From Campylobacteraceae bacterium (GTDB taxonomy: Bacteria > Campylobacterota > Campylobacteria > Campylobacterales > Sulfurovaceae): a stretch of 18,617 nt of DNA. Location: NCBI GenBank assembly GCA_027083895.1, contig JALWMN010000094.1:1-18617 (forward strand). The letters run 5' to 3'. The position numbers and the translations under genes are program-made. Below the pieces are notes generated by a model. That model made no database searches, was not told where the DNA came from, and worked only from the letters and a program-made list of their open reading frames with translations. Positions 3,141-9,247 of this stretch are shown here, piece after piece (position 1 is the first letter of the stretch; the number at the start of each line of letters is the position of its first letter).

Positions 3141-3800
3141 ATGGAGTGTAGGCAAAGAGGTGCATTTACCCTTATTGAGGTACTTATAGCTACTTTACTC
3201 CTTACATTTGTACTTATAGGGCTCTATAGTGCTCTTGATACACAACGCCGTGCAGTCTATAGTGTTAAAGAGAATCTCGATAGAAGTGTCGATTATGATC
3301 GAGCAGTGATGGTGCTCTATAATGATATACTCCATAGTGATGGGAATTTAACCATTAAAAAGGGGGAGAGAGATAGACTCTGTATAGAGGCGACTAGAAA
3401 TTCGCTTTATGAACTTGGGGTCGCAAAAGTGTGCTGGTTAGTCCTAAAAGATGGCGATACTCTTATTCGTATAGAGGGGAATGGCTATAGACTCCCATTA
3501 AGTTTAGAACAAAATGTAGAGGTTGATAGAGTCTTTAAGGGAGTTAATCTTTTTGATATAACACGAAAAAAAGATAAGATATTGGTTGTGGTTGGGCAGG
3601 TAAATAAAAAAGAGCCCTATGCTTTTTTGCTACAGGGGATAAAAAAGCCACCAAAGCCAAAGCCAAAGCCGAAACCAAAGCCAAAGCCAAAACCTAAGAC
3701 CCCACCAAAAAAGAAGACTCCTCCTAAAAAGAGTGGCGAGAGTAATAATAGTAAACCTGCAGAGGAGGAAGAGATCCCTCCAGAAATAGAAAACCCATAA
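3141..3800 (+). CDS. Pseudopilin-like protein with Lys-Pro repeat tail
   Basis: The N-terminus reads MECRQRGA then FTLIEVLIATLLLTFVLIGLYSAL: a short basic leader, a prepilin peptidase site and the hydrophobic helix of type IV pilins and pseudopilins. Cleavage before Phe puts Glu at +5 and leaves Ala, not Gly, at -1, a form I recall in Campylobacterota. A globular region of about 150 residues follows, then a (PK)8 tract, two TPPKK-like repeats and an acidic end (EEEE). The minor pseudopilin GspJ group is a reasonable guess, but no subfamily is proven. I prefer the ATG at 3141 because it gives an 8-residue leader; a GTG at 3123 overlapping the gspE stop would give 14. It is last in the visible operon, with a possible terminator after it. 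Confidence 0.8.
   Translation: MECRQRGAFTLIEVLIATLLLTFVLIGLYSALDTQRRAVYSVKENLDRSVDYDRAVMVLYNDILHSDGNLTIKKGERDRLCIEATRNSLYELGVAKVCWLVLKDGDTLIRIEGNGYRLPLSLEQNVEVDRVFKGVNLFDITRKKDKILVVVGQVNKKEPYAFLLQGIKKPPKPKPKPKPKPKPKPKTPPKKKTPPKKSGESNNSKPAEEEEIPPEIENP
3651..3698 (+). repeat. Eight tandem hexamers encoding (Pro-Lys)8
   Basis: Eight consecutive 6-bp units, mostly CCAAAG with CCGAAA, CCAAAA and CCTAAG variants, encode a Pro-Lys string near the C-terminus of the pseudopilin-like protein. Gains or losses would keep the reading frame, so the tail length could vary between strains. The reverse strand of this tract gives a spurious Gly/Phe-rich open frame. Confidence 0.9.
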
Positions 3801-7856: not shown

Positions 7857-8207
7857 ATGAGACATAGACATGGATATCGTAAATTAGGTAGAAAGTCACA
7901 ACATAGACAAGCATTGCTGAAAAACTTAGCGATTGCTCTTACAAAAGAGGGCAGAATTGAAACAACTGTAGCAAAAGCAAAAGAGCTAAGAAGATATTAT
8001 GAGAAATTAATTACTAAAGCGGCAAAGGGTGACTTTAATGCACACAGAGCAGTTTTTGCTCAGTTACAGTGCAAAGAGAGTACAAAAAAACTTGTTGAAG
8101 AGATTGCACCTGAGTATAAAGATAGAAATGGTGGATATACTAGAATTATTCGTACACGAATAAGACGCGGTGATGCTGCTGAGATGGCAATTATCGAGCG
8201 TGTCTAA
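7857..8207 (+). CDS. rplQ: 50S ribosomal protein L17
   Basis: This 116-residue L17 begins [25 protein letters not shown] and contains the typical [11 protein letters not shown] and [20 protein letters not shown] segments. It lies near the polypeptide exit tunnel of the large subunit. AAAGGA precedes the start, nine bases after rpoA. It is the last gene of the operon and is followed immediately by a clear hairpin terminator. Confidence 0.98.
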
Positions 8208-8256: not shown

Positions 8257-8539
8257 AATTAAATCCTCTAAACAACCATTAATTACACGTGAATGAGTAT
8301 TATTTTCGCTTCGTTAAAGCAAAAAGCTTTTATTGAAATGAATAAATAGAAAGACTTAGTAAGCGAAAGCAAAATACTACACTTTCTAAGCTTTACATAG
8401 CACTGCGTCTATGCAAGCTTGCTTAGCCTACACCCTTGTCCTTTTAGGATTAAGTGCTCTTTTTAATCTATTAATAGTATAAATTTTGTTAAAAGTATAA
8501 AGCTTTCATTCAATTTATAGGTTGTTAGAGGGTTTAATT
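8257..8539 (+). ncRNA. Unidentified 283-bp folded element (structured RNA or miniature inverted-repeat element)
   Basis: The ends are near-perfect inverted repeats. The left end AATTAAATCCTCTAAACAAC (from 8257) is complementary to GGTTGTTAGAGGGTTTAATT (8520-8539), with one mismatch and one extra base. GAATGA (8291-8296) and TCATTC (8506-8511) extend the pairing inward. Inside are three more hairpins. AGTATT plus TTTCGCTT (8296-8311) pairs with AAGCGAAA and AATACT (8361-8378). AAGCTT-TA-CATAG (8388-8400) pairs with CTATG-C-AAGCTT (8409-8420) around CACTGCGT. TCCT/AGGA lies at about 8439-8449. TAATT flanks both ends (8256-8260, 8535-8539) and could be a 5-bp target duplication. I found no match in memory to tmRNA, RNase P RNA, SRP RNA or 6S RNA. 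The strand is assumed. Confidence 0.5.
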
Positions 8540-8635: not shown

Positions 8636-9247
8636 ATGAGTAGTTATCCAAAATGGTTTGATGATGTAGAGAGTATTACACTCTATGATGGATTGAGTGA
8701 AATACTTGGCACATTTCAAGATGGTACAATTAAGATAACTTATCTTGAAATAGTAAAGATGGCTGGACATAGCTGCCCAACAGTTGCAGGAGCATATCTT
8801 ATGACACTACGAGCCCTCAAAGCTCTCTATCCAGATACACTACCAGTTCGTGGAGAGATTAAAGTAAGCTTCAAAGAGGCAAGTAGTGAAGGTGTAGCTG
8901 GCGTAATTGCACAAGTTATCTCTAATATTACAGGAGCTACAGATACTACTGGTTTTAAAGGACTTGGTGGAAAACATTCCCGCATTGGTTTAATGAATTT
9001 TAATAGTGATATAGATGCCTCTGCACGTTTTGAACGCATAGATACAGGGAAAAAGGTTGATGTTTATTATAATCATAGTAGTATTCCAGGTGATCCAAGA
9101 ATGCAAGAGCTTATGCCAAAAGTTATTGGTGGAGTTGCGTCAAGTGAGGAGAGAGAGCTTTTTGGTGAGCTTTGGCAAGAGAGAGTAAGAAAAATCCTTA
9201 TTGAAAGTGCCAATAGTAATAGAGTGTGTAGTGTTAAGAACATATAA
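8636..9247 (+). CDS. FmdE-domain protein of unknown role
   Basis: This is a 203-residue soluble protein. GHSCPTVAGAYLM (about residues 44-56) fits the conserved GHxCPG-type motif of the FmdE domain, named after formylmethanofuran dehydrogenase subunit E, where His and Cys are likely metal ligands. The C-terminal zinc-finger part found in some FmdE proteins is not visible; the end (SNRVCSVKNI) has one lone Cys. No methanogenesis genes are nearby, so the archaeal role should not be transferred. It has a very strong AGGAGG Shine-Dalgarno. The next gene starts 17 bases after its stop, also with a strong site, so the two probably form an operon. Domain call fairly good, function unknown. Confidence 0.72.
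   Translation: MSSYPKWFDDVESITLYDGLSEILGTFQDGTIKITYLEIVKMAGHSCPTVAGAYLMTLRALKALYPDTLPVRGEIKVSFKEASSEGVAGVIAQVISNITGATDTTGFKGLGGKHSRIGLMNFNSDIDASARFERIDTGKKVDVYYNHSSIPGDPRMQELMPKVIGGVASSEERELFGELWQERVRKILIESANSNRVCSVKNI

Follow-up and report, generated by a model that had tools for sequence, protein, structure and literature searches.

REP and REPIN elements are dispersed extragenic palindromes moved by RAYT transposases, and integron attC sites are folded single-strand recombination sites. The repeat described here, which we call family A, likewise occurs as dispersed extragenic palindromes, but unlike REP/REPIN elements it makes 4-bp duplications and has ends in common with an element carrying a DDE transposase. 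It resembles attC sites in that the letters of the stems are free to vary as long as they still pair, with a small number of mismatched bases conserved, but its 4-bp duplications point to a DDE transposase. The ERIC, Correia and bcr1 repeats are also palindromic, intergenic, mobile-looking and folded; they are known from other taxa. In PMC2267715, bcr1 appears in a secondary-structure table. The closest described systems are the miniature inverted-repeat elements (MITEs) that derive from prokaryotic insertion sequences (here NF033581, transpos_IS5_4), which, like family A, are short, have no ORF, carry terminal inverted repeats and short target duplications, are mostly intergenic and multicopy, and have ends common to an autonomous insertion sequence. 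Unlike these, family A keeps its core, and not its ends alone, as a covarying branched fold. The accessible text of a MITE review (PMC10969869) describes stable stem-loops in MITE transcripts and contains nothing on covariation across genera, and no earlier report of family A was among the papers listed in searches of the open PubMed Central literature. The conserved and apparently strand-balanced fold is the unusual part of the family; the anatomy is otherwise that of an old MITE copy.

Anatomy of the element between rplQ and the FmdE-domain gene

The window, the whole stretch of 18,617 nucleotides that was analysed, carries a 275-bp element on its forward strand at 8261–8535, in the gap between rplQ (7857–8207, forward strand), an ORF that we take, from reading its sequence, to encode ribosomal protein L17, and a gene with an FmdE domain (8636–9247, forward strand; PF02663 at 30.3 bits, cut-off 22.9). 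In our reading this stretch is very probably a decayed copy of a MITE, a non-autonomous transposable element, and we propose that an IS5-type DDE transposase mobilised it in trans. The first-pass annotation had described a folded 283-nt stretch at 8257–8539 with inverted ends, and these ends are real (AATTAAATCCTCTAAACAACC at 8257–8277 and GGTTGTTAGAGGGTTTAATT at 8520–8539). Relative to the right-end 20-mer, the left arm carries one substitution and an extra base, a difference that probably explains the absence of a terminal pair from the repeat finder's output, which for this stretch consists of two short inner palindromes. At up to three mismatches, the 20-mer matches nowhere else in the window. 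Folded as RNA, 8257–8539 is more stable than shuffled sequence on both strands (z = −3.92 on the forward and −3.90 on the reverse strand, with none of 200 shuffles equal), a comparison that the same annotation had proposed, and its AAGCTT/CATAG hairpin lies where it had been placed, at 8388–8420. With DNA parameters the folding of 8261–8535 is weaker (z = −2.71 and −2.89, with 3 and 1 of 200 shuffles as good).

Such pairing would also suit a structured non-coding RNA gene or a riboswitch-like leader closed by a 5'–3' stem, in which case the multicopy look of the element would be secondary. An Rfam scan of the stretch gave no family above its gathering threshold and, when run permissively, two matches only (E = 8 and 9), which counts against an RNA gene; the first-pass annotation had likewise recognised no RNA family. 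A search for tRNA and tmRNA genes gave none, and the ORF list holds no frame of at least 60 amino acids overlapping 8261–8535.

The flanking duplication proposed earlier holds in a shortened form: rather than a 5-bp TAATT it is a 4-bp AATT, at 8257–8260 on the left and 8536–8539 on the right, since the boundaries of the family make the T at 8535 the last base of the element. As AATT is palindromic, the duplication of this one copy is weak evidence. The outer part of the left terminal inverted repeat (AAATCCTCTAAACAACCATTAATT, 8261–8284, forward strand) has two mismatches to the family end pattern and that of the right (AAACCCTCTAACAACCTATAAATT on the reverse strand, 8512–8535) has three. A covariance model of the family, R1, matches the window at exactly 8261–8535 (model positions 1–198, 65.1 bits, E about 4e-12), the lowest score among the 68 aligned copies in the R1 search. 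Its fold is partly decayed, with 48 of the 67 model pairs kept (41 Watson–Crick and 7 G–T), and the four positions at which the family has TC doublets read AC, GT, TC and TC. The partly altered doublets and the loss of pairs indicate an old copy.

Most of the AAGCTT/CATAG hairpin falls in a segment at 8360–8418 (forward strand) that has no counterpart in the 197-bp standard form. This segment matches two places in genome G008 (contigs C113 and C96; 77%, E = 6.6e-5), near which no family-A end was seen in the stretch of sequence examined, and, by eye, a similar insert is present in two long family-A copies of G098 (g98_825 and g98_646). The segment 8360–8418 is part of a separate palindromic module in the middle of the element, and the window copy is a diverged, module-carrying member of the family.

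Copies, target duplications and ends shared with IS5-type insertion sequences

When the folded stretch of the window was used as query, 18 places were found in its own genome, and a query closer to the family norm (a 205-base copy from contig C69, flanks included) found 28 matching stretches there; both counts include the window copy itself and pieces of interrupted copies. The standard form is about 197 bp long; some copies are shorter (97–105 bp) and others are lengthened by inserts. G098 also has a version of about 56 bp (L276, about 1010–1066; CCCTCTGAAAAATTACAAAG ... CTTTGTAATTTTTCAGAA) with little in it beyond the two ends. The search of relatives that had been suggested from the sequence yielded matches to this stretch in 4 of the 12 genomes of its genus (G000, G004, G008 and G009). 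Allowing up to three mismatches, the end pattern occurs 34 times in G000, 17 times in G008, 10 times in G004 and 0–2 times in the nine other genomes of the genus, with 0 or 1 per strand in reversed-pattern controls. The exact pattern was found in 12 stretches of the GTDB contig collection, all of them in Campylobacterales or Campylobacteraceae MAGs.

Identical 4-bp flanks are present at 21 of the 29 copies with two ends, compared with a mean of 5.8 and a maximum of 13 in 20,000 shuffled pairings; without the AATT/AATT cases the count is 13 of 21 (shuffled mean 3.0, maximum 10). The duplicated flanks include AATA, AATC, TATA, AGTT, GATT, TATT and AATT; 8 of the 29 copies have no perfect duplication. 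The end motifs of all 29 copies were picked by reading, with more latitude for three in G000 (C174, C100 and C68). Copies that are one-ended or interrupted by another repeat were left out of this test, namely those on C176, C190, C64, C3, C154, C229 and C75 of G000, on C7, C97 and C130 of G004, and on C41, C28, C169, C181, C283, C255, C258 and C281 of G008. At one further locus (L225, contig C257 of G115) the flanks of the copy are mutually inverted, perhaps an assembly artefact near the contig end. By eye, some family-A copies of G000 and G009 contain or adjoin a second repeat family of about 155–170 bp, CCAAAAATTTGCATTAGAGATTAACAACC ... CTAATACAAAATTTGG (L016, L020, L024, L136, and L122 near 2400 and at 3380–3545).

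The rplQ protein is present in 11 of the 12 genomes of the genus, and the relative nearest by this protein (G009, 97% identical) has rplQ adjoining the FmdE gene with the element absent. The gap between the two genes is 130 bp in G009 and 149 bp in the window after subtraction of the element and one AATT, and the exact empty-site junction is blurred by divergence of the flanks. An RNA gene would be expected as a single syntenic copy, so both the many dispersed copies with 4-bp target duplications and this absence speak against one.

A search for the end pattern in three other genomes (G098, G123 and G115) gave, among the matches listed, a pair of ends spanning 1,177 bp in G098, a complete genome from another genus, and the element between them carries a frame-broken transposase with DUF772 and DDE_Tnp_1 domains. 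One 117-aa piece of this transposase was used as query against 37 chosen genomes and matched four, the source G098 together with G221, G092 and G005. The intact 330-aa proteins of G221 and G092, which represent two other genera, score 243.8 and 245.3 bits to the IS5-family model NF033581 (cut-off 140), and the insertion sequences that encode them start and finish in GAACCCTCTGAAAAA; in G221 the outermost 15 or 16 bases of the ends agree fully with the family-A consensus. The flanks are TATT/TATT and AATT/AATT for the two elements in G221, TATT/AATT (a one-base mismatch) in G092 and AATT/AATT in G098. G005, which belongs to the genus of the window, has a degenerate insertion sequence flanked by AATT/AATT. 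Based on the shared ends and these flanks, family A fits a non-autonomous derivative moved by an IS5-type transposase. In the genomes of the genus with the largest numbers of copies found, namely G000 (72% complete), G004 and G008, the same 117-aa query gave no match, and none of the seven ORFs sent to Pfam from 17 regions around family-A ends in genus genomes was a transposase.

We propose that the transposase of a full-length insertion sequence would have recognised the outer 15–16 bp of the GAACCCTCTGAAAAA-type ends, and that the element would have inserted into the gap between rplQ and the FmdE-like gene, at a target resembling AATT, giving rise to the 4-bp duplication. That an IS5-type transposase itself did the moving is something we infer rather than observe, as the genome's own incomplete assembly yielded no transposase copy. 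Family A has the features expected of an IS5-type MITE: terminal repeats, a target duplication of constant length (4 bp), no transposase gene, dispersed copies and, in other genomes, an autonomous element with the same ends. Its many genomic copies, the 4-bp target duplications, the site lacking the element in G009 and the same-ended IS5-type insertion sequences make a MITE the most likely reading, ahead of an RNA gene, and uphold the mobile-element explanation, one of the two between which the first-pass annotation had been undecided.

Covariation and apparent strand balance of the folded core

Eighteen copies went into model R1, and a single copy among them supplied its structure. RNAalifold gave a weak consensus for these 18 close copies (−5.9 kcal/mol), with pairings through A/T runs that we judged implausible and rejected, and for these reasons the fold of one copy was adopted as a hypothesis. 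Covariation among the 18 copies is modest (15 pairs changed on both sides compared with 6.6 in shuffles), and their further pair types are no better than in 50 of 500 shuffles. Among 398 genomes sampled from the order, with no row for G004 or G008, R1 has patchy matches in 39 genomes and 16 of the 87 genera at the search's own cut-off. By manual count, 17 genomes in 8 of the 87 genera reach at least 80 bits; in the other matched genomes the best match ranges from 77 down to about 34 bits, and these lower-scoring matches may be distant relatives or alike by architecture only. Six genomes studied more closely have between 8 and 35 matches apiece, and in these counts a site can appear twice, once per strand.

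For alignment A3 we retained 68 matches in 64 sources with an E cut of 4.5e-12, chosen to keep the window and to drop opposite-strand duplicates; the full search comprises 114 matches in 74 sources, of which 10 sources were left out, and two of the retained copies (L168 at 76.5 bits and L169 at 66.7) come from genomes whose best match is under 80 bits; both also enter the eleven-copy sample below. Among the 68 copies, 90.9% of cells are paired compared with 76.8% after shuffling, changes on both sides occur in 595 cells compared with 166 in shuffled and at most 138 in slid controls, and 58 of the 67 pairs have such changes. These values come from an alignment fitted to R1, the structure of which was taken from one copy; the slid controls agree with them, as do the samples in which each genus contributes few copies. 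In eleven copies from ten genera, 90.3% of cells are Watson–Crick compared with at most 67.6% in shuffles, and 56 of 71 pairs have at least two Watson–Crick types. For eight copies from eight genera, all of at least 130 bits, the corresponding values are 92.4% and 42 of 71 pairs, none of 500 shuffles exceeding 75.6%. The eight-genera set, with one copy per genus, is a repeat of the eleven-copy test and lies nearer our own reading; we report both. A helix that R1 had missed covaries too.

The shape to which the inner core would be constrained is a branched hairpin. Its outer stem is interrupted by two TC/TC internal loops, both conserved, and the other parts are a side hairpin, an inner stem and two apical hairpins. 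A whole MITE interior thus appears to be kept in shape across genera as its letters change, in a class of repeats that is often treated as two-ended debris. Strong folding and strong covariation across genera are also what a structured RNA gene should have, and one placement of the family could be read that way. Two genomes of one other genus, G179 and G147, have one R1 match each at a shared place (L166 1501–1684 and L167 1501–1681), between a promoter-like TATAAT (TTTGCTATAATCGCG) and a gene that we read as mnmG; the outer stem of this relative partly differs in sequence between the two and, by eye, pairs in both.

In a fold kept on one strand as RNA, G–U mismatches should outnumber A–C. As a control we used RNase P RNA from 27 Campylobacterales genomes (27 of 38 matches; 8 had no locus, and G000, G027 and G043 were dropped as long), in which GT outnumbers AC by 59 to 11 with pairs whose commonest form is G–U left out. 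The 68 family-A copies have 181 GT and 139 AC, and without the hairpin-B loop helix, which has a fixed G–T pair, the counts are equal at 131 each. An independent alignment and structure gives 57 GT and 79 AC, and the 66 copies of A3 without L168 and L169 give 126 and 143. The outcome varies with the sample: the eight copies from eight genera have 9 of each (p = 0.004 against RNase P), and the eleven copies, which bring in two genera with weaker matches and, for one genus, a second lineage, have 20 GT and 11 AC (p = 0.037). Since GT and AC mismatches appear balanced, unlike in RNase P, we hold with moderate confidence that the pairing is kept in DNA or on both strands, and the core shape would accordingly be maintained at the DNA level or on both strands alike. 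The equal counts (131/131 and 9/9) weigh against an RNA gene, which we now regard as highly improbable for an element that is multicopy and non-syntenic, belongs to no known RNA family and has no clear one-strand G–U pattern.

The first-pass annotation had proposed that many copies with duplications would support a mobile element and a syntenic copy with covarying stems an RNA gene. Both the duplications and the strongly covarying stems were found in family A, so this test does not cleanly separate the two readings. For RNA-gene discovery this is a caution, as covariation alone could have passed family A as a new RNA family.

With the MITE reading retained, the reason for the fold can still be contested. 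Template switching between the arms of an imperfect palindrome repairs one arm from the other and could explain linked changes, producing covariation without function; according to PMC8794818, the process can both generate stems and preserve them. In line with it, some pairs have changed on both sides with wobble intermediates being scarce (columns 49/338, for example, have 31 AT, 25 GC, 2 TA, 1 GT and 8 mismatches), and part of the outer stem of the G147/G179 relative looks replaced as a block. The TC doublets, two per arm, place TC on both sides and are unpairable, and the pairs next to them change. Of the 68 copies, 42 keep all four and 62 keep three or more, which counts against template switching because copying from arm to arm should turn mismatches into pairs; several unpaired columns are nearly invariant as well. 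We consider template switching a possible account of the fold, albeit one that is more probably wrong than right. The family makes testable the question of whether folded DNA matters for the movement or survival of MITEs, or whether errors in copying palindromes mimic selection.

Placement near rplQ and outer ends in other lineages

A further alternative is that the host took over the copy beside rplQ as a terminator or an mRNA-stabilising 3' element. The standard form has a central hairpin followed by a T run (AAAAAGAGC...GCTCTTTTTT), and two other genomes also have a family-A copy downstream of rplQ, one about 107 bp past the end of a gene that we read as rplQ (L148, 1478–1674) and one about 730 bp past rplQ (G008, C149:30389–30593). 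The three placements may reflect chance, shared descent or a hot spot. The sequence beyond rplQ looks different in the L148 and G008 genomes, so these copies may be separate insertions, which weakens the case for a takeover. By eye, rplQ has a terminator-like hairpin of its own, shared with the element-free G009, and the copy beside it in the window is the one that scores lowest of the 68. Nor do the gene contexts of the 68 copies favour a role at gene ends: as assigned with a crude ORF caller, 36 lie between tandem, 8 between convergent and 10 between divergent genes, 2 are inside an ORF and 12 are unassigned. A takeover by the host therefore seems quite improbable to us, and we return to the reading of the window copy as a decayed MITE.

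The outer ends of the family differ by lineage. IS5-type ends (GAACCCTCTG) go with 4-bp duplications, and two genomes have the same core with other outer ends, G045 (171 bits) with AACTGAYSTTACGCA-type ends and G221 (160 bits) with AGAGGTTTTTG. Together with the changed stem of the G147/G179 relative, these support, without proving, a core that outlives its ends. In the other strand, the TC/TC internal loops are tandem G–A mismatches. It is conceivable, if rather unlikely in our estimate, that selection acts on the folded core as a unit in its own right, a passenger recognised by its structure that has spread through the Campylobacterales by borrowing the ends of different transposases.

Weak R1 matches of about 52–65 bits in G086, G242 and G041 (L324, L333, L334 and L328) have GGTACTGACTAAAT-like ends and direct repeats of 8 bp (AAAATATC, CTTTTCTT; in L328 the repeat has a single mismatch), which suggests a distant, differently mobilised relative. 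An IS1595-type transposase was considered as the driver of the relatives with GGTACTGACTAAAT ends and rejected, since only one of 11 genomes yielded a fragment of it and that fragment had no such ends close by. Three loci in G115 (L278, L282 and L283) carry a short repeat whose outer GAGTCYTCTGAAAAA ends are similar and whose interior (TGATTYGCGAAAACATCTGC...) is unrelated; the transposase type proposed for family A perhaps mobilised it as well.
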